This document shows, piece by piece, positions 10,488-63,393 of a DNA stretch of 64,000 nucleotides (positions are counted from its first letter, which is position 1; every line of letters starts with the position of its first letter). The DNA lies in the NCBI RefSeq assembly GCF_040954835.1, contig NC_090698.1, positions 2,168,501-2,232,500 on the forward strand, written 5' to 3'. A program made the translations under genes and the position numbers. The notes beneath the pieces were generated by a model. It was not told where the DNA came from and did no database searches. It saw nothing but the letters and a program-made list of their open reading frames with translations. This DNA comes from Lepisosteus oculatus (taxonomy: Eukaryota > Chordata > Actinopteri > Semionotiformes > Lepisosteidae).

Positions 10488-10493
10488 TTTATT
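10488..10493 (-). terminator. Candidate poly(A) signal, minus-strand gene
   Basis: TTTATT on the plus strand reads AATAAA on the minus strand, about 310 nt after the stop codon at 10800-10802. It would place the 3' ends of the two convergent genes close together without overlap. Confidence 0.45.
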
Positions 10494-10799: not shown

Positions 10800-11423
10800 T
10801 CACTCGGAGGGGTACGGCCTGGGGCCCTTCAGCAGTTCTGAGGACCTCACTGTTCCTCTGTACGGGACCGAGAGAACAGTGCCCCCTGCCATCACCCTGT
10901 CCTGGGACCTGGCTGTGTCCCTGTCCCGGCCCGTCGGGCCCCCCATGAGCGATTCGATGGGGCTCATGGGGATCCCGCTTGGCCGGGCTGACTTCCCTGA
11001 CATGAGCGATTCGTACGGGGTCAGAGTGTGCTCTCCGGCCCGCAGGCTGACTGGGACGGCCTGCTTCTCGGGGGCCGGCGCGCCGAACACGCCTGGCGGC
11101 TTTTCCGGCCTCCCTGACGGAACCGTCTCCCCCGACAGCGACGTCCCCTCCCACCTGAAGAGCACATGCCTTCCGCCTCCCAGCTCTGCCTCGCCTCTTG
11201 CCCCGGAGTCCGTCACCTCCCCGGGCGGCGCGCCCCCCTGCTTCTGCGATTCCGAGTCCTTGGATCCGGGTGTCTCCTCGGCCCTCCCCTGCTTCGCCTC
11301 CCCAGCGCCCCTCTGCTCCTCTCCCTGCTTCTGGTCCTGAAGGACAGTGGGAGAGCGAGACCGCCTGAGACCCCCTCCCACCCCATCAGCAGGGTCCCGC
11401 AGTGCCGGGGGGGGGACCCAAGC
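10800..11423 (-). CDS. Array gene terminal exon, 207 residues plus stop
   Basis: Acceptor ggtgctgcag, phase 0, begins AWVPPPALRDPADGVGGGL and stays open to a TGA at 10802-10800. It is Gly/Pro/Ser/Arg-rich. Two copies of an ESLM motif (TPYESLMSGK and SPIESLMGGP) share the 12 bases GAATCGCTCATG. The end is VRSSELLKGPRPYPSE. No known domain is recognised. Confidence 0.6.
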   Translation of the reverse strand, partial: AWVPPPALRDPADGVGGGLRRSRSPTVLQDQKQGEEQRGAGEAKQGRAEETPGSKDSESQKQGGAPPGEVTDSGARGEAELGGGRHVLFRWEGTSLSGETVPSGRPEKPPGVFGAPAPEKQAVPVSLRAGEHTLTPYESLMSGKSARPSGIPMSPIESLMGGPTGRDRDTARSQDRVMAGGTVLSVPYRGTVRSSELLKGPRPYPSE

Positions 11424-13397
11424 CTGCAGCACCGACCTCAAGCTCTGCTAACATAAAAGGGCAGCTCCGGTGCTGCCTTCTTCAAGAGGTACAGTGAGCA
11501 GCAGGTTTGTGAGAAAACAAGACTGTGGTAACGTGAGAGATTGTGTGTATGTGGAAAAAAAAACACAAGGACTTTATACCTGAAACTGCTCATCCTGCTG
11601 AAGCACTGGCTGTCGTTCTTACTCCTGCCCATTTCTACAGTGTGTACTTTCAGGAGCTCAAGACCCAGGTTTCAAATATCCTACTTGTTTGCAGCTTATC
11701 GATCTGATGATAAACTCCTGCGTTTTCATGAAAATTAAACTGCTTTTACAGTGTGAGAATGAGCAGCCTGTTCCAGACACCCACAACCCTTTGTGTAAAA
11801 CAGAAACATGTTATTTTTACATGCATCTATATGAAATACAAACTGATTTACTTTCTCTTTGTCTTCTCACATCTGCATAACATCAGGTATAAGAGACCTT
11901 TGTACAAACCTCATTGAGGCCACTCTGGCAGATAAAAAAGATGCCTTTTATCAGTATGATTATGATGGATTTACTCACCTTCTTGGTCTTCTTTTTCTTC
12001 TAAAAGACAGAGAGAGAGTGATATTAGAGACAGCAGCACATCTGTCTTGATGAGCACCACAGATAGGGTGCTCTAAGGACGCATCAGAGAAAGCAGTCTC
12101 ACTGGATGCATTAGAGTTTGGTATGGCAGTTGATCAGCTTGTGACCATAGAAAACTACACTGGTACAGAACTCCCCACCACGCACTGCCTCAGAATGGCA
12201 AATAATAGAATCAAGGATCAAAAGCACCATGCTCATGCACTTTTCTCTCTTCTTCCTTCTGGTAGAAGATTCAGGAGTATTAAAGCCCAGACCTCTAGGT
12301 TCAAAGAGAGCTGCTTTCCCACAGCCAAAAGACTCCTAAAATCCAAATGAATTTCGCACACGTCTGCTGTCTGAATGCCACTTAAGACCATAGCTGCTAC
12401 CATGTTCCTGTCTCCAAACAATGTGTGATGTAATTTATTAAATGGCAAACAAATCCTACTCCGTTGGACCCCAGAGCAAGGCCCTTAACCCCAGCTGCTC
12501 CAGGGGCGCTGTATAAATGGCTGACCCTGCGCTCTGACCCCCAGCTTCTCTCCCTGTCTGTGTGTCTCATGGAGAGCAAGCTGGGGTCTGTGAAAAGACG
12601 AATTCCAAATGTAAGAAATTGTATATGGCCAATAAGGTGATCTGATCTGATCTGAAACAAGTAAGCAAGTAAGTATTTCATTGTACTCAGGTACACATGG
12701 CAATAAACTTGAAACTCAGCTCCTTGCAGGCCACAGAGTTCCCTGAGTTTCACTCTAATTGAACTAATTATTCCCCTCCTCCAGATTTTTTAATTGTTTT
12801 CCTACATCTTGAAGAACCTAAAGGCGCTGCAGGAAATACATTCTTATGAAGACATCAGTCTTTGTTTTGGACGCAGAGCTCTACTGCACTGTCAAGTAAC
12901 AAAGTGTTGATGCAGGAACATTCTTGTGACTGCGAACGTGTTGCCTGTGCCGGTGCAGGGGTGTACTGGCCAGCTGATGGTAGGGCAGGTCAGAGATTCT
13001 GAACAGGGAACAAATAACAGCAAAACACAAGAGCAGCGACATACCTTTTCATCGTCCTCGCTGTCTGAGGAAGAGGAGGAGCTGGATGAGGAGGAAGAGC
13101 TCGAGCTGGAGCACTGTGGGAGAGAGCAGGTTAGTGCCCTTTCTCTTCTGACAGCAGAAAAAACAGATCTCCTCAAGACAGACACTCTGAACGCGAGAAG
13201 ACCTTCGAAAGGTCACCAAAAACAACAAATATCTGCACCACCTGACACCCACAAGAGAGACTGTAATTGCAGTCAGTGATGCACCAAAACTCAGTACCAT
13301 ACCAGGTACCTGCATGGTCGCAGATTCTATGTTTTGAGTGGATAAACTCGGAAAATACTGTAGCTTGTTAAGAGTTTATTTCTGACTCTCCTTACCT

Positions 13398-13429
<32 letters not shown>

Positions 13430-16400
13430 TTCATCTTCTTCTTCTTCTAGAGACAGGGAGAGAGAGACATGAGGGACTGCAGGACACACAGACATTGAAA
13501 AAGGGTCCAGATATCTGTCAAGCCGAAAGGACGGCACCTTTTTATCACACTCGCTGTCCGAGGAAGACGAGGAGCTGGAGTCCTGGAAGAGAGGAAGGCA
13601 ACAGGTTAGATTTTTATCGAACAGTTTGACCTCTCCATGTTTCCACACTTTAGCTGTCTTTCAACACTATAGGTGTTTTTTATTACCATCCAATATTTTC
13701 CATAATTATCATATACTTAATAAACAATTAAGGTAGTAAAAGGAAATATACACCCACACAAAACACCCTCTTACACCCCTCCACCTGCCAGAAAAACAGT
13801 TGACAGATCCAATAATACATCATCAGTTAATGGGGAAAAAATATAGTCATATTTCTATATATGATTTCATATTCACATTTATAAGAATATAGTATATTTT
13901 TTGAATAATTAAACAATTTACGTGAAGAAAATAGTCATTCAATTGAAAAATGATTACCTTTATTTTTCATTATTTCACATAATATTATTCCTTCTATAAG
14001 ATAGATGTTTTTCCCCATCTATCTTCAAAACGTTTATTCTGATTCCATTCCATTTCATGAACTTCACTGACTGATTTGAGGTGCTTGTGGTTTAAGCCAG
14101 AACCACCTGCTCCACTTAAAGACATTCTCGGTCTCACTGCTGCAACGCTGTGCGTGCAATGATCAGAAACGAACCAGGAGGAGGTGGGCCTGCGTCTGAC
14201 AGGGGAATGACTGAGCTGTACTCTAACCTCCCCTTGAGCTGAGGTGGCCCGGGTTGTTAGACACTTAGATGCTTAAAACCACAGCAGCCCTTCACAGGGA
14301 TCGCCGGTGCTCAGTGTCTTACTTGGTCCCATTTTGTGCTGTCATCCTGGGACTCAGACTTCATCACGAAGACACGAGAGGAGCTGTGAGCTACCTTTTT
14401 AGAACCTGTGCTGTCGGAGTTCGAGGAGCTAGAAGTCTTTGAAAGGGAGGCACAGGATTAAGATCCTAATATTGGGAAAATCGCAAAAAGTCCACCCTGT
14501 CAAAAGCTGTTGAAAGTTCCCTGACGTCCTTTGCTTGCCATCTTGAGGGGTCATCCTGCTTTCTTGGTTTTTATCTGAATCATCCTTTCAATCTCTAGAG
14601 GAGAGCAAGTGCCCCATTCACCCACTTCTTACCTTCTTCTTGCCTTTCTTCTTCTTGTCCTTCTTGTCTTTCTTCTTGTCCTTCTTCTTGTCTTTCTTCT
14701 TCTTGTCCTCATCACCACTCAGGACGGCTGGGTCTCTCTGCTCTTGCGCCCCCCCTGCAGGAGGAAATGGGTAAAGCAGAGAGAGAGTGTGTGAGTACAG
14801 TAAACCCCTGAGGACAGCAGCTCAGAAGCTGTCCTCACAGATACTGTCTCTTCTGAGAAGCGTTTGTTGTGAAAACAGAAGATATGTTCCAAACCATCAG
14901 AGGCTGTTCAGACCAACTAGCTTATTCAATATGTTGTTGCTGGTTTATGTGAGGATGTTAACCACCTTATTTTTTTTTAAAGAAGATGAGCTTACTTCCT
15001 CTTTAAAATGTAGAGGTGCCTGTATTTTTTGGTTCAGGCGGAGTTTTCATTTGAGTGGCATTTGGAATATTAAAAATAGAATGGGGGTCAATGGAAAGTA
15101 CAGGAATTCAGAGCACTGCAGCCTCAAGCTGGGGTTTCTCAGTTCTGTGAGGATAAATGGTTGCAATCGGGGGGAAAATTTGCTGTTCAGAATCGTTTTT
15201 AGGGGAGCAGCACATCATGCAAAACTTAATTGAAAAACTGTAAACATTTAAGGGTGACAGCTGCATGTGGTTTATCACTGTTGCTTCACAGCTCTCGGTC
15301 CTCAGTTTGATTCTGGACAGGAACACTCTGTGTGGAGTTTGCATGTTCTCTCAGAGACCCACAAGCTAGGTTAATCCTAAATTGTCCCCCTCCATTCTGG
15401 GAAAGGCTCTAGTTTCTTGCATCCCACACCAAAATAAGTGGCTTTCTGCAGAAGCGCCTGCGTTACTCCGCGGCCACACACAGCCTGTACTCACCGCTCT
15501 CACAGACGGCACCCACACTTTCATCAGCAGCCCCCTTCTCGCCCTGGCCACCCTGGCAGACAGGAGAGGAGTGAGCGGAGGTGTCGTCCAGCAGCACAGC
15601 TGACCAGCTGCTCTCCACGTGCACGTGAGATGTCTGTGAGAAGCTCATGCACAGGAGACACTGCCTCGCACCGAGTCCCACCTGACTGCGCGTAACCGGC
15701 TTCGAACTGGGACACTTTGTTTTGTCTTTTTTATTTTAACAGCGGCACAAACAGCAGAACCAGCTCATCGCCGACTCTGAGCTCAGAGGCATCTGTCTCT
15801 CTACAGGGCTTATGGAAACCTGGAGGTAGTGTAATTGTCACTGACTCACCTTCTCCCCCTTCTCCTCCTCCTTCTTTTCCTCCTTCTTCTTCTCCTTCTT
15901 CTTCTTCTTTTTCTTCTTCTTCCCCTTCTAGCAGACAGAGAAAGGCATTAACATAGCAAGGTTCTGAAACAAGACGAAGCCACAGACCCGGTCCGCTCGT
16001 GGGACATCCCGGTCACCTGCTCGCAGCGTCACCCACGTGAGGCCGCGCTGGCGACCTGGTCAAATAAGAGCCGGGGACCCTCAATCAGGGCTCCCCGATC
16101 CTGGGCCCCCAGGGGCCCCACGCAGCTGCTGAATCTGTGCATCTAAAAAAGGGACCAACGGCTCTCGATCCCGAACCGTAAAGCACACAAGCAGAGCAGT
16201 GCGTACCTTCTTATCGCCCTCGCTGTCGGAGGAGGAGGAGGAGCTGGATGAAGAGGAGGAGGAGCTGGAGTCCTGTGGGAGGGGAGCAGGAGACAGCAGG
16301 TTAGTGCTTCAGCCTCAGACAGCCCAGACGCCCTGAAGCCTCCTGGGTCTGGCTTGTCCTGGCAGACACACAGCTGGGCTCCCCTGCCTCACGCCTGCCC

Positions 16401-19400
16401 TTGGCCTACACCTGCTCGTCTCCTCTGCCAGCTGCTGTCCCTGCTGCAGAACGTGGAGATTAGAGGACTCTTCGTCAACAACAGCTCACCTTCTTCTTCT
16501 TCTTCTTCTTCAACTTCTTCTTCCTCTTCTTCTTCTTCTTCTAAAGACAGGAACAGAGCAACATGAGGAACAGAAAGTGCTGTGGGCTGGGAGGAACGTC
16601 CAGCTCCTGTGTGTCTTAACGAGAGGATACAGTTCTGACCAGGATCAATGGGGCAGGAAACTTTAAAAGAGTTACTAAAACCCGTTAGAAATGAAAATTA
16701 AGTCTAAAATTCATCTTTCTTGCAAAGACTAAGAGTGGGGTTCAACAGGAAATAATGCTACTCTTTTACCATACTGTAATCGAGAGCATTATGAGATATG
16801 GTATAACAGTGGAGTTTGGTCATCTATCAGCTCAGTTGAGATCGCAAATTACCCGCCTCATCCAAACAGCCTTGAAGGCCATGGGAGTGAAACAGCACCC
16901 CTCCCTGCAGACAATCTTTGAAAAAGCCATAATCAAACAGGCAGGACAAATTATATCAGATCCTTCCCACATCCTCAACTCTGAATACCAACTTCTTTCA
17001 ATGTGCCCAACGTTTTAGGGTTCCCAAATGTAAGTCAAACAGATACAAACATTCCTGTGTTCCACTATCCATTAAAGCTGTCAATGCAGATGGCAAAGAT
17101 AAACACAATTTTTTATCTTTAAAATCCACTTGTGTGCAATATGTTTTGTAATGTGTTATAAATGTTATATTTGTTATGTGTTACACATGTGCAATAGAGT
17201 GATGTGCAATGTTTTTTCTGTTGTTTTTTTTTTGGGGGGGAGGGTGTGCATTATATTTAAATGTACAGAAGTGCTGTGTGTCCACAAAAAATGTCCCTCA
17301 GTGGACAATCAATCTTATCTTATCTTAAAAAAGGAGGATCCACCACCCCTCAATTGTAAACCATAAAGCACACAAGAAGAGCAGAGCGTACCTTTTTATC
17401 GTCCTCGCTGTCGGAGGAGGAGGAGGAGCTGGATGAAGAGGAGGAGGAGCTGGAGTCCTGTGGGAGGGGAGCAGGAGACAGCAGGTTAGTGCTTCAGCCT
17501 CAGACAGCCCAGACGCCCTGAAGCCTCCTGGGTCTGGCTGGTCCTGGCAGACACACAGCTGGGCTCCCCTGCCTCACGCCTGCCCTTGGCCTACACCTGC
17601 TCGTCTCCTCTGCCAGCTGCTGTCCCTGCTGCAGAACGTGGAGATTAGAGGACTCTTCGTCAACAACAGCTCACCTTCTTCTTCTTCTTCTTCTTCAACT
17701 TCTTCTTCCTCTTCTTCTTCTTCTTCTAAAGACAGGAACAGAGCAACATGAGGAACAGAAAGTGCTGTGGGCTGGGAGGAACGTCCAGCTCCTGTGTGTC
17801 TTACCGAGAGGATACAGTTCTGACCAGGATCAATGGGGCAGGAAACTTTAAAGAGTTACTAAAACCCGTTAGAAATGAAAATTAAAAAAGGAGGACCCCT
17901 CAATTTTAAACCGTAAAGCACACAAGAAGAGCACTGCATACCTTTTTATCGTCCTCACTGTCGGAGGAAGAGGAGGAGCTGGAGTCCTGTGGGAGGGGAG
18001 CAGGAGACAGCAGTTATTCTCTTCACAGTGTGTTCACAGCTCTGCAGGGTGTCAGCTCTCAATTCCACTGGCCAGGCTCAACCAGTGCCACAGCAGGACT
18101 GTCCGGCACCAGACCAACCCGGACCGTACCCAGAGCAGAGCTGTCTGGCACCAGACCAACCCCGGAGCACACTTGGATCACTTGCAATTACCTACTGCTT
18201 AAGTCTGCTCTCCCAGCGGGACTCTTATTTCTTTTATCTTTCTGCAGACTTTTAGCTGCCCAAAGCAAAACCATAAAGCCCATTACCTCCTTTGCTTCCC
18301 ATACTTCCCACTTTCATGCTCAGTTGTGAGCGATGTGCAAAATGAGAATTGTGCCCGGCTCTGAGGGCTGCTGTTCTGGACTGGGTCAGTGTCAGTGGAC
18401 ACCTGTCCGGCTCTCTGGCCAGCGTGTCCAGATATCGTGTCAGCTGTGGCCTGCGCTCAAGTGGCCTGTAGAGCACAGTGGAATGAGGTCCCTCCAGGAC
18501 CAGCACTGCTGCTGTCCAGGAACTAGGCCCCTTTCTGTTTTGTGTTCATATTCTAAAGAGCATTGACCTCCTTGGCACAATACAAAACGAGCTCAGCTAC
18601 ACGAACAAAAGAGACCCGAAGGTGAGTTGTGGTGCATGCTGGGTCAAGTAGTGCCGTAGTGACTGGTCAGTGAGTTATCCAGGAGTCCGCCCACCTTCTT
18701 CTTATTCTTCTTCTTCTTCTTCTTTTTCTTCTTCTTCTGTTAAAGACAGGGAGAGAGAGACATGAGGGACTGCAGAACACACAGACTCCGAGCAGTGGAC
18801 ACAGCAGTGCCGACTCTGCGTGTCGTTCACTGAGCGAAGAGACTCCCGTCCCTTTTTGCATTCACCTGAGACGTCCCCTTCAAATCTGCATTTGAAAGGT
18901 CTTTGGACATGTTTATAACGTGCATAAGCTTGGCTTAATCACAGGTTCGAGCTTGACTTCACCTCTGTGCTAGCTGCTTGTTTCTCTGCTGTTGTAGTAG
19001 ACCGCAACACAGTCTTGGAAGGGTGTATGGGGGTGCCCAGCTGCTGTGTTAGTGATGGGATGTGGGGGTGCAGTGTTCTGAGATAAACAGCGTATTGGAA
19101 TCTGAAGCTGCGTCTAAAAAAAGGAGTAACTATGGAAAACACAGGCAGTGCTTTGTCTTACCTTTTTATCATCCTCGCTGTCCGAGGAAGAGGAGGAGCT
19201 GTCCGAGGAGGAGGAGGAGCTGGAGTCCTGCAGGGGAGACAGGGAGAGCAGGTCAGAACACAGATACCCTGACAGAGAAAGAGTCCCGTTATGTGCCATC
19301 ATACCTGGGGCATTTAGCCAATACACTCCAGTTCAGAAGGTTGACAGCACTACACCTCTCAGCTCATGTTGAAAGCTTGTTTTCCTCACGCCTGGGGGCT

Positions 19401-22400
19401 CATCTCTCACTATGGGATCTTTCTCATGTTCCAGCTGTACAGCATGGCTAGGGTGCAAAGGCACTGCGTCTTTGTAAACTGCACTGAGCTGAAGTCTGAA
19501 GTGCCACACGGCTCCAGTGCCCTGATAGACTCTGCTGCTCCGGACAGACTCAAGAATTCCCACTCAATACAACATCAGCACTAGCTCTTCTCACCTTCTT
19601 TTTCTGCTTCTTCTTCTTCTTTCTCTTCTGTTTCTTCTTCTCCTAGAGACAGGAAGAGAGGTGTGAGGAGGGCAGCACAGACAGAGCTTTTGACGCAGTG
19701 CTGAGGACAGGGCCCAGACAGCTGTGTTTCCCTAGTGGTCACCCCCACTAGCACAGCGAAGGCTTTCCTCCATCTGGCAGGACTACGAGAACAACTTCAT
19801 TCTAATTATACTGTATCTAAGAAGACACTAGTGGAAGTGTTCGGGCTTTTTATACCCAACTGTAATAAAAAGCTAGCGAAGTGCTTTCTAAGTGACCTCT
19901 TAACACTGTTTAGATCACTACTAAATTCTAAAGTTCACCAATTGTTATTTCTTAAGCTAATAACCACTTCACTCAGCTGAGTAATATTGCTTTCAAGAAG
20001 GAGCTGGATACTGTAATGCACTGTTCATGCTGCAGTCTTGGCTGCTTTCCTCAACTGTGCAGTGTTGTCTCTGTATCTGCGGGCAGGGGGGTGACTAATT
20101 GTCGATCTGGGGCTGTGCCCCTGCAGGAGAAGTCAAATCGCACCTTGTCATCATCCTCGCTGTCCGAGGAGGAGGAGGAGGAGGTGGAGGAGGATCCAGA
20201 GTCCTGCAGGAGAGAGCGAGTGAGGGCTCATCAGGTAGTGCTGACACACAGGGGAGCTACACAACTGGATTCACAACAAGTACAGACTCCCAGAGGCCTG
20301 AACGACAACAGGAGTGTTAGCCGCTGACTCTGCTTACCTTCTTCTTCTTCTTCTTCTTCTTCTCCTCCTTCTCCTCCAACTCATCGTCACTCAGATCTCC
20401 AGGGTCTCTCAGCTCTGAGGACACAGTTGGAAACAAGAACTGCTGGACTCAGTGTGAATCACTCTCCAGGTGTGTATGTGTGTCTACATCACTCTCCAGG
20501 TGTGTATGTGTGTGTCTACATCACTCTCCAGGTGTGTATGTGTGCGTCTACATCACTCTCCAGGTGTGTATGTGTGTCTACATCACTCTCCAGGTGTGTA
20601 TGTGTGTCTACATCACTCTCCAGATTTGTATGTGCGTCTACATCACTCTCCAGGTGTGTACGTGTGCGTTTACATCACTCTCCAAGTGTGTACGTGTGCA
20701 TCTACATCACTCTCCAGGTGTGTATGTGTGTCTACATAACTCTTCAGGTGTGTATGTGTGCATCTACATCACTCTCCAGGTGTGTGGGTCTACATCACTC
20801 TCCAGGTGTGTATGTGTGCATCTACATCACTCTCCAGGTGTGTGTGTCTACATCACTCTCCAGGTGTGTGTGTGTGTCTACATCACTCTCCAGGTGTGTA
20901 TGTGTGTCTACATCACTCTCCAGGTGTGTATGTGTGTCTACATCACTCTCCAGGTGTGTACGTGCGTTTACATCACTCTCCAGGTGTGTACGTGTGCATC
21001 TACATCACTCTCCAGGTGTGTATGTGTGTGTCTACATCACTCTCCAGGTGTGTATGTGTGTCTACATCACTCTCCAGGTGTGTATGTGTGTCTACATCAC
21101 TCTCCAGGTGTGTATGTGTGTGTGTGTCTACATCACTCTCTACGTATATATGTGTGTCTTCATCACTCTTTAGGTGTGTCAGTGTGTGTGTGTGCATCAC
21201 TCACAGGGTGAATTTAAGCATCACGCTCAATGTGAGTGTATGTGTGGGCTCATCAATATTGTTGTGTATATATATCACTCCCAAAGTGTGTGTATGTGCA
21301 TTACCATCAGTGTGTATATGTGGACTCACATCCAATGCCAGCCAGCAGCCATGTCACTCTGCAACTCACAACTGGCAACCCACTGAAGCTAAAGCAGGTG
21401 TGAGCCTTGCCAGTACCTGGATGGGAGACCTCCTGGGAAAAACTAATGTTGCTCCAGGAAGAGGTGTTAGTGGGGCCTGCAGGGGGCGCTCACCCTGCGG
21501 TCCATGTGGGTCCTAATGCCCAGGTATAGTGACGGGGACACTATACTGTAAGCAGGTGCTGTCCTTCGGATGAGAGGTAAAACAAAGGTCCTGACTCTCT
21601 GTGGTCATCCCAGGGCATCTCTCGAAAAGAGTAGGGGTGTAACCCCGGTGTCCTGGCCAAATTTCCCATTGGCCCTTACCAATCATGGCCTCCTTATCAT
21701 CCCCATCTATGAATTGGCTTCATTACTCTGCCCTCCTCCCCACTGATAGCTGATGTGTGGTGAGCGTTCTGGCGCACTATGGCTGCCGTCGCATCATCCA
21801 GGTGGGGCTGCACATTGGTGGTGGTGGAGGGGATCCCCATTACCTATAAAGCACTTTGAGTGGAGTGTTAAAGCGCTATATAAAGTGTAAGCAATTATTA
21901 ATTATTATTATTAAATGCAAAGTGTGTGCATGCAGTTGTGTATAATTTACATTCCTTTAACTATTCAGTTGATCCTTGTTGCCCAAATTTGTGCATTACA
22001 ATAAAAAGTGAGAAGTTAATTTATAGTGGATTCTTCTTACTGATGTCAATTGAACCCTTGTAAAATTTGCTGATAGACATTTCATTAAAGGCACAGCCTT
22101 GAAGGCACAGCCACAAGGAGAAGTCCAAATATAGGAGAAATAGCTATCTGTGGCTGCTTGCCTTGACTTAATGGGAGACATCTAATTCTACATCACATAT
22201 AAAATGAAGTAGTCATAGCTACTGTGCTATTCATGCTGTATATTCCACAATAAACAGACAGGAGTGGCTCACCCTTATCTTTCTTTTTCTTCTTCTTTTT
22301 CTCCTTCTTCTTCTCCTTCTCTCCATCCTGACAGACAGGGAGAGAGTAAGAGGCGATGGCACTGGGAAGGTCAGGGGACTGTGTTTCTCTAAGGAATATT

Positions 22401-23774
22401 GAACAGAAGCTCTGGCTGCCAAGGAATGGACTGCACACGACCTGGGCGCAGGAATGTGGCTTTTCAACATCCGAGAAACTGACCTAACAGGACCTGGAGT
22501 TCGTGTCAGCTGCCGAACACTAACCCTGTATCTAAAGGCTTGGATTTCTTGTTGAGGTGTGGCAGAAATTGCATGCTCTTCGAGTTTCACATTTGTTGGC
22601 AAACGTAAAAGCCAATGCGAGCATTTACTCCAATTTAACGAAATACCTCTCTGTCACAGTTCTCTCATCTGATTGGCCCCATGCAATGCAAGGAGACCTT
22701 AACAGTTTCACCAGCTGATCAGTCGATCCAGTTAACACATGAAAGTGGTGAGATCAGAAGTCACCAAATCGTGTCAGAATTTGAGGAATTGTACACAGAA
22801 TTTGGCACAGAAGCTTGCAAAAGCACTGTTGAGGTGGTGGGGGGGGGGAAACACGCTCAAGGTGTTTGTGCTTCTGGGAAAGACGTGTCAGGGAAAACTG
22901 CAGGCAGCCAAATACCTCTTCGTCATCCTCGCTGTCAGAGGAAGAGGAGGTGGATGCCTGTAAAAGAGCAAATGACAGCAGGTTAATATTCTTCACAGAA
23001 TTCCCTATGTACAGCCACCGCCACTAGAAATCCGCTGCTGACGTCACCGAACGCCAGTATCTATTTGTGTCATATCATATCTGTGTATATTTGATAAAGG
23101 AGTTCCATTCCAGGAGCACCACCCCTACTGCTGAAGATAAAGTAAAAAATGTCGGTATCAGAAATGACGTTCTCAGTTCTATTTTACAAAGTAGTCCTGC
23201 AGGCTGTTGGAGCTGTGATTTTACTTTCTGGGTGGGGTCTTTGGTGTGATAGAAGAGATATCCACCACATGTCTCTAGGTCCCTTGTAAGGGTGTCTCTC
23301 AGAACTGCAGCTCATGCCCTGACATTTGGTAAAAATTTGGTAAAACTACTATATATAGAGGTCTGTTTTAGATGCATCATCCTATCAGATTACAATAAGC
23401 AATGAAATGGTCCGTATCCTAATGTACAGTGACACAACACCAAGCACAAAGAGGAACAGGCACAAACACACTAGAATTTGACTTTGAGCACCTTGCAGGA
23501 CCTGTGACAGCCATGAAGAAGGCTGATACACTATAGGTACGGATATATTGCAAAGGACCTGGTTGTTCACGCTGCATTTGGAGACTGGTGTGCTGATTTG
23601 GCAGAGCGCCATAGGTTTTCATCAGCAGCTGTTCCCACCCCACCAGCTCACCTGATGCTCTTTGGAGGGATCCCGATCCTGATCCGCGTGGGGGGTCAGG
23701 CTCGCTGGTGCAGCCCTCCACGTCTCTCCCCTCCATCCCTCCTCCCAGAGCTCCTGCCTTGTCTTCACCTCCAT
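10800..23774 (-). CDS. Unrecognised gene: alternating poly-Lys and acidic-Ser microexons
   Basis: I assemble 22 exons on the minus strand that join in one frame (1,902 nt, 633 residues): 23774-23652, 22957-22916, 22327-22273, 20414-20338, 20203-20144, 19642-19595, 19227-19162, 18736-18695, 17986-17942, 17725-17675, 17457-17392, 16540-16490, 16272-16207, 15927-15850, 15552-15495, 14754-14633, 14436-14395, 13582-13538, 13446-13396, 13113-13045, 11999-11979, 11423-10800. All have GT-AG ends. Nine exons encode Ser runs mostly ending DSEDDKK (candidate casein kinase 2 sites). Ten encode Lys-rich blocks. The 207-residue C-terminal exon has two ESLM motifs. No signal peptide or membrane segment was seen. 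NOLC1 and TCOF1 also alternate acidic-Ser and basic blocks, and cylicins have KKD repeats, but I see no homology beyond composition. Function unknown. Confidence 0.62.
11979..11999 (-). CDS. Array exon 21, 21-nt Lys microexon
   Basis: Seven codons, KKKKTKK, between tcttttag and gtgagt. Its size makes it hard to prove without transcripts. Confidence 0.5.
12070..12352 (+). mobile_element. L2-type LINE remnant (RT C-terminus)
   Basis: The frame 12237-12350 reads HALFSLLPSGRRFRSIKAQT and FKESCFPTAKRLLKSK, typical of the C-terminal end of L2-clade reverse transcriptase ORFs. It is 5'-truncated and lies in an intron of the minus-strand gene. Confidence 0.7.
12470..12650 (+). repeat. SINE or LINE tail repeat copy
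   Basis: The segment with catggagagcaagctgggg and gaaaagacgaattccaaatg recurs at 34940-35030, and ends in a (gatct)n simple repeat. Family not named with confidence. Confidence 0.5.
13045..13113 (-). CDS. Array exon 20, acidic-Ser type
   Basis: Twenty-three codons: Cys, fifteen Ser, then DSEDDEK. A CACTAACCTGCT branch-point-like stretch lies upstream of the acceptor. Confidence 0.65.
13396..13446 (-). CDS. Array exon 19, Lys type
   Basis: Seventeen codons: Lys with one Met and one Arg. Acceptor tgtctctag, donor AAG|gtaagg. Confidence 0.65.
13538..13582 (-). CDS. Array exon 18, acidic-Ser type
   Basis: Fifteen codons, DSSSSSSSDSECDKK. It follows another Ser exon directly, so the Lys exon expected between them is missing. 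Confidence 0.65.
13683..14340. other. AT-rich intron, nothing recognised
   Basis: Intron between array exons 18 and 17. It is AT-rich around 13680-14000, and I see no gene or named repeat in it. Confidence 0.4.
14395..14436 (-). CDS. Array exon 17, degenerate Ser type
   Basis: Fourteen codons, TSSSSNSDSTGSKK. The DSEDD core has decayed to DSTGS. Acceptor ends AAG, weaker than its neighbours. Confidence 0.5.
14633..14754 (-). CDS. Array exon 16, QRDP plus Lys/Asp type, phase 1 to 0
   Basis: One hundred twenty-two nt: (G)GAQEQRDPAVLSGDED then a KKKKDKKKDKKKDKK-type block ending KKGKKK. This is the array's longest basic block. Confidence 0.65.
15255..15400 (+). mobile_element. tRNA-derived SINE fragment (5' part)
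   Basis: Contains the common fish SINE segment gtgtggagtttgcatgttct after a degraded tRNA-like head (tttgattctggac). It lacks the 3' half seen in the copy at 35110. Confidence 0.6.
15495..15552 (-). CDS. Array exon 15, phase 0 to 1
   Basis: Fifty-eight nt: GGQGEKGAADESVGAVCES plus one base. Same phase pattern and position before an RDP exon as exon 3, so the 3/4 and 15/16 pairs look like duplicates. Confidence 0.6.
15850..15927 (-). CDS. Array exon 14, Lys/Glu type
   Basis: Twenty-six codons, the longest plain Lys exon, with Glu and Gly mixed in towards its end (ending EEEKGEK). Confidence 0.65.
16207..16272 (-). CDS. Array exon 13, acidic-Ser type
   Basis: Twenty-two codons: Asp, fourteen Ser, then DSEGDKK. 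The Gly replaces the Asp of its duplicate, exon 11. Confidence 0.65.
16490..16540 (-). CDS. Array exon 12, Lys type
   Basis: Seventeen codons: fifteen Lys, one Arg, one Leu. Acceptor tgtctttag, donor AAG|gtgagc. Confidence 0.65.
16735..17345 (+). mobile_element. L2-type LINE 3' end between duplicate copies
   Basis: The frame 16755-17018 reads LLFYHTVIESIMRYGITVEF and PSLQTIFEKAIIKQA, typical of the LINE-2 reverse transcriptase C-terminus, followed by a 3' tail. It sits exactly between the two duplicate copies. Confidence 0.75.
17392..17457 (-). CDS. Array exon 11, acidic-Ser type
   Basis: Twenty-two codons: Asp, fourteen Ser, then DSEDDKK. Sister copy of exon 13. Confidence 0.65.
17675..17725 (-). 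CDS. Array exon 10, Lys type
   Basis: Seventeen codons: fifteen Lys with one Arg and one Leu. Identical to exon 12 in the neighbouring duplicate. Confidence 0.65.
17883..18010 (+). repeat. Tandem duplication, truncated copy 3
   Basis: Repeats the left flank and the Ser exon (array exon 9) of copies 1 and 2, then diverges after gggaggggagcaggagacagc. Confidence 0.8.
17942..17986 (-). CDS. Array exon 9, acidic-Ser type (third duplicate)
   Basis: Fifteen codons, DSSSSSSSDSEDDKK. It and its flanks are a truncated third copy of the tandem duplication that also contains exons 11 and 13. Confidence 0.65.
18695..18736 (-). CDS. Array exon 8, Lys type
   Basis: Fourteen codons, thirteen Lys and one Asn. 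The intron flank (gacagggagagagagacatgaggg on the plus strand is longer than quoted here; core gagagagacatgaggg) nearly repeats that of exon 19. Confidence 0.6.
19162..19227 (-). CDS. Array exon 7, acidic-Ser type
   Basis: Twenty-two codons: two Ser blocks separated by Asp, ending DSEDDKK. Donor AAG|gtaaga. Confidence 0.65.
19595..19642 (-). CDS. Array exon 6, Lys type
   Basis: Sixteen codons, EKKKQKRKKKKKQKKK, between tgtctctag and gtgaga. Confidence 0.65.
20144..20203 (-). CDS. Array exon 5, acidic-Ser type
   Basis: Twenty codons: DSGSSST, a Ser run, then DSEDDDK. Acceptor ctcctgcag, donor AAG|gtgcga. Confidence 0.65.
20338..20414 (-). CDS. Array exon 4, LRDP plus Lys type, phase 1 to 0
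   Basis: Seventy-seven nt: (E)LRDPGDLSDDELEEKEE followed by eight Lys. It resembles exon 16, (E)QRDPAVLSGDED then Lys/Asp. Donor AAG|gtaagc. Confidence 0.65.
20455..21190 (+). repeat. 30-bp minisatellite, about 25 copies
   Basis: Unit close to gtgtgtatgtgtgtctacat plus cactctccag, with small length variants at the TG stretch. It lies in the intron between array exons 3 and 4. Because the period is near 30 bp it leaves long frames open on the plus strand, which are not genes. Confidence 0.95.
21330..21915 (+). mobile_element. 5S rRNA-derived SINE (SINE3 type)
   Basis: The head holds gaagctaaagcaggtgtgag and gtacctggatgggagacct, the internal promoter region of 5S rRNA. A ~430-bp body follows, ending in agcgctatataaagtgtaag and a TTA-rich tail. 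The 5S part is diverged, so it is a retroposon rather than a working 5S gene. Confidence 0.85.
22273..22327 (-). CDS. Array exon 3, Lys type, phase 0 to 1
   Basis: Fifty-five nt: DGEKEKKKEKKKKKKKDK plus one base. Donor G|gtgagc. Its phase is completed by exon 4, which starts with two bases. Confidence 0.65.
22916..22957 (-). CDS. Array exon 2, acidic-Ser type
   Basis: Fourteen codons, phase 0-0: ASTSSSSDSEDDEE. A TTAAC branch-point-like motif and AACCTGCTGTC stretch sit upstream, as before the other Ser exons. Confidence 0.65.
23652..23774 (-). CDS. Lys/Ser-array gene, candidate first coding exon
   Basis: ATG at 23774-23772 in context gagagaATGG, then MEVKTRQELWEEGWRGETW, ending DQDRDPSKEHQ before donor CAG|gtgagc, phase 0. 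An in-frame TAG lies 33 nt upstream of the ATG. A tgtcccag acceptor just before the ATG allows a non-coding first exon further upstream. This is the least certain exon of the model. Confidence 0.45.
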
Positions 23775-23889
23775 TCTCTCCACTGCTGGGACAGCGCACA
23801 GGGACTATCAGCCTAGAGACACTCCCCTTGGGTACACTCCAGGGTACAGGGTAAAGTATTCCTGCAGGATTTTTTACAGACGTCATTTC

Positions 23890-24560
23890 TGAGAGCGCCT
23901 CGCGCCTCGAACAGAAAGCCTCCGGGTGGGACTGAACGTTTCTCCCGTGGGTGTTTCTGGGAGCGCTCCTCCTCAGCCCGTCTATGGCTAATGTCCAGGG
24001 TTAGTGCAAACAGGGCGACGGAGATATGGTTGAAAAATCTCTTTTTAAAAGTTTGAGTTACGCTAATCCGGCATCTGAGCCGTCATTCACCAAGATGTAC
24101 ACGCGGGGCGGGTGATGTCGGATAAGTGTGATTAACGCGGAAAAGAGGTCCTGTCACCGGGTGTGAGTTTTGAGCCGGAGTGCCTGATACTACAAACCTT
24201 AACGCACACGGTGTTATTAACGTGTGGGTGTGAACGATAACCAGCGGTTAACGCCTGTAGAGATTTTTTTTCGAGTTTTTTTCAGATTATCTTTTTAATG
24301 TTCTCATAGATCTAAAATGATAGACAATAATAATTATAATGATCAACTACTTGCTGAAAAGGACCTGGTTACATGCACGAATATAAACATAGATAACGTG
24401 ATTATCACATCGTTCAGGTCACTTTTTCGGCCACTGAAAAGATCTTGCTTCGCCGTGGCTAAAACGCGCTAGAAGACGAAAACAGCGCCGGCTTACCTCT
24501 TACCCAGTGCGTGGACAAGAAGAACTTAGTTTCTCAGCATGGTCGTGACAGAGGTACTTC
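23890..24560 (-). promoter_or_regulatory. Possible promoter region of the array gene
   Basis: CpG dinucleotides are frequent at 23890-24140 and again near 24460-24520. On the minus strand a gtaaga/gtaagc donor pair near 24490-24505 could end a non-coding first exon. Only weak positional evidence. Confidence 0.3.
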
Positions 24561-24589
24561 AAATAAATCTGACTGCTCCCAGTACTGTT

Positions 24590-25310
24590 CTGCGCCTAGC
24601 GAGCGCATACAGGAAGAGGCAACTGCAGTACTGCTGACCCCAAAGCCCTACAGCGGGTGGTGAAAACTGCCCAGTCCATCACTGGGGCTCCTCTCCCATC
24701 TATACAGGACATTTATGACAGACGGTGCTTGAGGAAAGCTCTAAGCATCATCAAAGACCCCACACACCCCAGCTACAGACTGTTTGACCCTCTGCCATCT
24801 GGAAAACGGTACTGGAGCATTCGGGCCCGGACCAACAGACTCAGAGACAGTTTTTACCCCCGCACTATCAAACTGTTAAACTCCCAGCCTCTCTCACTCT
24901 CACCTCACCTCTCACCTATGATCTGAACCTCACAGTGCCTTCTTTCTTACCAAAAACTCACACATTGAAATCTACCCCTGCCTCACATGTCAAGAAGTTC
25001 ACTCCCCATAATTTCTATCCTTTTATTTCATTCTGTTGATGCATGTTTTTGCACATCTGATGTTGTTTTTGCACATTGCCTGTTACCTTTTTGTTGTTTT
25101 GCACATTGCCTGTTGTTGTTTTGCACATTGCCTGTTGTTTTTGCACACTGCCTGTTGTCTCTGTCTTTTTTTTATTATACAATTGTATTGTTGTTGTTGT
25201 TGTTGTTGTTGTTTTTTTTGTACTACGTATCGTCTGAGAGGTAGCTAAATAGCATTTCGTTATACCATATACCTGTATATGAGTTTAATGACAATAAATT
25301 GTAAATTGTT
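24590..25310 (+). mobile_element. L2/CR1-type LINE 3' end
   Basis: Frame 24657-24926 reads VKTAQSITGAPLPSIQDIYD, RCLRKALSIIKDPTHPSYRL and PLPSGKRYWSIRARTNRLRD. A 3' tail with repeated ttgcacattgcc and a final aatgacaataaa follows. The element is 5'-truncated. Confidence 0.8.

Positions 25311-38814: not shown

Positions 38815-63393
<24,579 letters not shown>

Follow-up and report, generated by a model that had tools for sequence, protein, structure and literature searches.

A probable gar gene with lysine and acidic serine blocks on separate microexons

A 64-kb stretch of Lepisosteus oculatus DNA (bases 2168501-2232500 of contig C3 in a 1.2-Gb genome; hereafter the window) raises the question of whether a row of very short lysine- and serine-coding segments on its minus strand is a gene or a cluster of repeats, and what such a gene would make. 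An exon-by-exon rebuild from 23774 to 10800 joins 22 exons into a single reading frame that is closed by its only stop, giving 604 amino acids, and all 21 introns have GT-AG borders. This agrees with an earlier note on the same DNA, which had read canonical splice sites for 19 short exons and had joined all 22 exons in frame. On the sequence evidence set out below, the gene is very probably real. Its features are collected in Table 1.

The short exons are of two main types. Nine are Ser-type (exons 2, 5, 7, 9, 11, 13, 17, 18 and 20) and ten are Lys-type (3, 4, 6, 8, 10, 12, 14, 16, 19 and 21), while exon 15 (GGQGEKG...) is a separate type. The blocks follow one another as S-K-K-S-K-S-K-S-K-S-K-S-K/E-(GGQ)-K-S-S-K-S-K. 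Both block types do lie on separate exons, as had been claimed, but the alternation is imperfect (K-K, S-S and GGQ). The description of the Lys blocks as almost pure fits six of the ten (6, 8, 10, 12, 19 and 21), whereas exons 3, 4, 14 and 16 contain E, D or G besides K. Eight of the nine Ser exons end as described, in DSEDDKK or something close to it; exon 17, with DSTGSKK at its end, is the exception.

That this structure exceeds chance was borne out by a strict scan of both strands of the window for exons in phase 0 that are rich in K, S, D and E and have good splice sites at both ends. The scan returned 13 exons, every one in the gene and on its strand, whereas 100 first-order Markov simulations of the region gave none. 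Because that null does not preserve microsatellites, the remaining sequence of the window makes a better control. Seven of the 20 internal exons were missed: exons 3, 4, 15 and 16 have a phase-1 end, exons 2 and 18 a weak donor, and exon 17 too low a K/S/D/E content.

The Ser exons also differ from one another as coding sequence does. In their last eight codons, compared over seven of the nine exons (without the duplicate exon 13 and the degenerate exon 17), the ratio of nonsynonymous to synonymous differences (pN/pS) is 0.15 in frame against 3.1 and 1.1 in the two shifted frames, and 0.22 with all nine exons, figures that are rough because the sites are few and related. A pure TCC microsatellite does not account for the Ser runs, since all six Ser codons are present (TCC 46, AGC 17, TCT 11, TCG 7, TCA 3 and AGT 1 in eight of the nine exons, 13 dropped). 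The terminal exon has a GC content of 0.69, whereas the 300 bases preceding it have 0.54 and the 300 following it 0.45; by codon position its GC content is 0.66, 0.59 and 0.82. It has no in-frame stop, although a second frame is open too. Upstream of exon 1, the ratio of observed to expected CpG is 1.23-1.35 in 24001-24600 versus 0.50 window-wide, in a stretch whose GC content of only 0.41 means that it is not a classical CpG island.

Sixteen of the 20 internal exons are phase 0-0. The remaining four form the pairs 3/4 and 15/16, and the phase-1 intron of each pair is exactly compensated; the motif RDP..LS.DE is shared by exons 4 and 16, in each a short way past the phase-1 junction. The start of the terminal exon was judged by acceptor score. 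The acceptor before 11336 scores 11.3, at the 98th percentile among the region's 1222 AGs, versus 1.0 and the 77th percentile for that before 11423, and both keep the frame. Because of this difference in score, 11336 is the more likely start. The 633 residues of the earlier note are in frame, but they need the poorly scoring acceptor, and 604 residues are favoured. The disfavoured extension (11337-11423) does hold ALRDPAD, which resembles LRDPGD in exon 4 and QRDPAV in exon 16, and may be the relic of a third copy of such an exon. This likeness is suggestive only, because two of the five places where [LQ]RDP[AG] occurs in the window's six frames lie outside the gene (63613 and 43992, both minus). 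RNA structure was unusual in none of the three exons examined.

The introns point to how the gene has grown. Two stretches are nearly identical: 17885-17458, which takes in the end of intron 9, exon 10 and intron 10, and 16701-16273, with the end of intron 11, exon 12 and intron 12. Between them, 375 of 377 intron columns and all 51 exon columns agree, and there is one gap column. When the exons are masked, shorter stretches tie the surroundings of exon 9 to those of exons 11 and 13, and the acceptor region of exon 8 matches that of exon 19 at 95.7% over 46 bases; no further intron pair within the gene matched at E 0.001. The near-identical exon 10 and 12 stretches, together with these weaker links, show that modules multiply by tandem duplication, once very recently. 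The other introns are no longer alignable, yet the Ser-exon peptides are still alike. Tandem duplication, as read from this one genome, is the only route by which a change in block number is demonstrated.

Exons of this kind are rare beyond the gene. Searched through the whole genome, the pattern of DSEDDKK followed by a donor has at least three places, all in this gene (exons 7, 9 and 11), and an AAG tract ending at a donor has at least six, five of them here (exons 4, 6, 10, 12 and 19) and one on contig C6; such counts are lower bounds for repeats. Reversed controls of both patterns gave no match in the genome. The C6 match lies in a frame reading ETPSDSDHKKKKKKRDDDPDRKKKKKDKKKKK, which we take to be MED19. 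The terminal exon has one strong match in the genome, which is itself, and the next is at E 0.81. Like the earlier note, we can name no homologue: none was found by Pfam, by PDB or in the gar's own genome, the one vertebrate genome searched, and neither database gave a relative for the terminal exon. Modelled alone and without an alignment by AlphaFold2, that exon gave no confident fold (mean predicted local distance difference test score 52.1, predicted template modelling score 0.12). A phage DNA search had no match, as expected of a fish gene.

What would the product be? The charges are strongly segregated, as expected of the proposed polyampholyte: the measure is 0.233 for the 385-residue core versus 0.091 (standard deviation 0.011, maximum 0.129) in 500 shuffles. 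Net charge is −2 to −6 in eight of the nine Ser exons (+1 in exon 17) and +6 to +16 in the six nearly pure Lys exons, and each of the nine Ser exons has two to four S-x-x-D/E sites by count in the sequence. The product would be a disordered block polyampholyte with its charged blocks on separate, mostly phase 0-0 microexons. CK2-type kinases would phosphorylate the Ser blocks (S-D-S-E-D-D), taking them from weakly acidic to strongly negative, and the Lys blocks would target the protein to the nucleus or nucleolus and offer multivalent binding. Blocks of Lys and of phosphorylated Ser could then attract one another, or client proteins and RNA; like NOLC1 and Treacle, the protein would thus be a scaffold or a component of a condensate in the nucleus, most likely in the nucleolus. 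Valency would be set by the number of blocks, which tandem exon duplication changes. By analogy, a role as CK2-phosphorylated block-polyampholyte scaffold of a nuclear condensate is plausible, and we give it about an even chance. The symmetric phases make 16 of the 20 internal exons skippable without loss of frame; that splicing tunes the number of blocks is nonetheless doubtful. Equally speculative is a condensate scaffold with charge valency as an exon cassette, in which duplication and tissue choice of exons would dial block number, order and balance in frame.

A comparison with known systems separates what is shared from what is not. The genome's one SRP40_C match (76.2 bits) marks NOLC1 on contig C4, where 11 acidic clusters and K/A/P/T linkers stand within one open frame of 548 codons; other, smaller frames on that strand combine acidic Ser clusters with Lys as well. 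Acidic Ser clusters alternate with Lys-containing basic stretches in both genes, imperfectly in this one. In NOLC1, as read from its open frames, both block types share one frame, whereas here each block has its own exon and six of the ten basic exons are nearly pure Lys. This contrast within one genome supports the claim of a NOLC1- or TCOF1-like principle with the blocks placed on separate exons. SRP40_C had no match in the 604-residue model at E<=1. NOLC1 carries an N-terminal LisH domain, and Pfam found none in the model, whose N-terminus is uncertain. A side feature of NOLC1 (L021, 5165-6811) is a set of four close KKKQESSSSSDSSSEEE copies and a fifth, more diverged, in one open frame.

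The SR-25 family (PF10500), presumably that of ARL6IP4 (SRp25), shares a Ser run beside a Lys run, and its profile gave 38.4 bits here, under the cut-off of 40. On contig C22, by contrast, matches of 81.1, 44.4 and 38.9 bits lie together and reach profile position 211 of 226, while the best stretch in this gene covers only positions 70-122. A second open frame with a Ser run and a Lys run (L007, 1483-1962, on C12) scores 34.4 bits, also below the cut-off. Genes of the triadin/ASPH family are alike in that many short exons encode a Lys-rich chain; the difference is that the protein model has no Asp-B-Hydro_N match at E<=1 and the genome's three matches to that domain lie on C6 and C2. Identity with NOLC1, ARL6IP4 or triadin/ASPH was therefore rejected, since their domains lie elsewhere (C4, C22 and C6/C2) and none exceeds its cut-off in the protein. 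RPA43, a subunit of RNA polymerase I, differs in having three blocks. It resembles this gene in its repeated K-rich blocks, at least two of which are required for nucleolar integration according to the published account (PMC9470157). Treacle is described as a block polyampholyte too, in which acidic Ser regions recur and Lys-rich blocks are present; there an S/E-rich region goes with an adjacent linker, and the K-rich low-complexity region, a nucleolar signal, is C-terminal (PMC11996177), while here Lys and Ser blocks are interleaved. In Nopp140, CK2-phosphorylated acidic Ser clusters alternate with basic stretches (PMC12905727). The Treacle repeat (PF03546) had no match in the protein, and a genome search found none here, but none in 14 control genomes either, so that this result is no evidence of absence. 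The separation of block types at the level of exons is new; the protein principle is already known. Neither this gene nor a polyampholyte with one block per exon was met in open-access keyword searches of titles and abstract openings.

How much of this could repeats explain? The Lys tracts are AAG repeats, and a microsatellite cluster with fortuitous splice-like flanks would leave no gene at all, yet the window scan, the simulations and the pN/pS frame test reject such an artefact. The constraint on the Ser exons, the CpG-undepleted stretch and AATAAA at the gene ends, and a terminal exon without a stop and with GC of 0.82 at third positions leave this reading extremely improbable. A milder form is a young or decaying coding gene in which drifting AAG and TCC repeats were caught in exons and have little function of their own. 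Support comes from the Lys exons, which lack the expected codon-position bias: counted by codon position (first, second, third), departures from AAG number 3, 3 and 5 in five nearly pure exons (12 dropped; 71 codons) and 20, 3 and 12, the first mostly GAG, in nine of the ten Lys-type exons (12 dropped; 180 codons), as a drifting AAG repeat could explain. The very recent tandem duplication, the imperfect alternation and the two weak donors fit as well. The low Ser-exon pN/pS with its out-of-frame control, the preserved splice sites, the compensated phase-1 pairs and the rarity of both exon patterns in the genome argue the other way, and we consider this reading unlikely.

A real gene might also make a cytoplasmic, cytoskeletal, sperm-head or junctional sarcoplasmic reticulum protein, with a Lys-rich chain like that of cylicin or triadin/junctin. 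Composition alone does not fix the compartment, and the many short Lys-rich exons recall triadin; but the model has neither an Asp-B-Hydro_N nor a cylicin match (Pfam, E<=1), no Asp-B-Hydro_N match lies at this locus, exon 1 as read has no hydrophobic stretch, and the acidic Ser blocks are like those of NOLC1 and Treacle. Such a product is improbable in our view. Slightly better placed, though still doubtful, is a known vertebrate gene in a form peculiar to this lineage, with the mammalian counterpart lost or not recognisable by sequence; this is compatible with a condensate scaffold. The terminal exon is specific, non-repetitive sequence able to carry homology, but it is without a Pfam or PDB match, and NOLC1 and ARL6IP4-type genes lie elsewhere in the genome. 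These probabilities do not sum to one because the rivals overlap in part. Several points weigh against the nuclear scaffold itself. The gene is read from DNA sequence, nuclear location and phosphorylation are inferred, codon-position constraint was not found in the Lys exons, and exons 1 and 17 are atypical, the N-terminus (exon 1) being the least certain part of the model. Moreover, Pfam at E<=1 returned nothing for the model but SR-25, in a search whose HMMER filters remove most weak matches, and that match, in a low-complexity stretch, looks compositional.

Nucleoli are organised by block-polyampholyte scaffolds, and the effect of block number has been tested with engineered constructs such as RPA43 deletions (PMC9470157). 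In a natural gene that gives each block its own exon and has a recent near-identical duplication, natural block counts could be compared across individuals, tissues and species. Low-complexity proteins would then be seen to grow by exon copying and not by repeat slippage only.

Table 1. Gene model and flanking signals, in window positions, with the basis of each call
Feature	Position	Strand	Basis or remark
CpG-undepleted promoter-like stretch	24001..24600	-	CpG observed/expected and GC
Exon 1	23652..23774	-	ATG at 23774, MEVKTRQELW..., phase 0 end
Exon 2, Ser type, ASTSSSSDSEDDEE	22916..22957	-	weak donor (5.3)
Exon 3, Lys/Glu type	22273..22327	-	phase 1 end
Exon 4, (E)LRDPGDLSDDELEEKEEKKKKKKKK	20338..20414	-	phase 1 start; similar to exon 16
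Exon 5, Ser type	20144..20203	-	exon rebuild, strict scan
Exon 6, Lys type	19595..19642	-	exon rebuild, strict scan, AAG-donor pattern
Exon 7, Ser type	19162..19227	-	exon rebuild, strict scan, DSEDDKK-donor pattern
Exon 8, Lys type	18695..18736	-	exon rebuild, strict scan
Exon 9, Ser type	17942..17986	-	exon rebuild, strict scan, DSEDDKK-donor pattern
Exon 10, Lys type	17675..17725	-	51/51 bases same as exon 12
Exon 11, Ser type	17392..17457	-	near copy of exon 13; two codons differ
Exon 12, Lys type	16490..16540	-	exon rebuild, strict scan, AAG-donor pattern
Exon 13, Ser type (DSEGDKK)	16207..16272	-	exon rebuild, strict scan
Exon 14, Lys/Glu type	15850..15927	-	exon rebuild, strict scan
Exon 15, GGQGEKGAADESVGAVCES	15495..15552	-	phase 1 end
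Exon 16, GAQEQRDPAVLSGDEDKKKK...	14633..14754	-	phase 1 start; similar to exon 4
Exon 17, degenerate Ser type, TSSSSNSDSTGSKK	14395..14436	-	exon rebuild
Exon 18, Ser type	13538..13582	-	weak donor (3.9)
Exon 19, Lys type	13396..13446	-	exon rebuild, strict scan, AAG-donor pattern
Exon 20, Ser type	13045..13113	-	exon rebuild, strict scan
Exon 21, Lys type, 7 codons	11979..11999	-	exon rebuild, strict scan
Exon 22, terminal, 178 amino acids + stop	10800..11336	-	in-frame alternative start 11423
AATAAA polyadenylation signal	10488..10493	-	about 310 nucleotides past the stop

Some smaller features accompany the gene. An AG at 23783, with the ATG eight bases on, is a possible acceptor (score 4.8) of an intron in the 5' untranslated region, whose donor would sit in or near the CpG-undepleted stretch. 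Intron 3 holds a minisatellite (20458-21202) of 30-nucleotide units in about 24 copies with 87% matches. Three plus-strand open frames, at 24600-24926 (5' of the CpG-undepleted stretch), 16695-17018 (within intron 11) and 12054-12350 (within intron 20), have no Pfam match at E<=0.01 and presumably are retroelement fragments, which they resemble. The gene lies between two neighbours. On one side Pfam matched none of three long frames on the plus strand (2.3-8.7 kb), and the name PLEKHG2 is the earlier note's only. Its other neighbour, VASP, fits the WH1-domain exons found on the plus strand in the frames 53722-54225 and 56023-56340.

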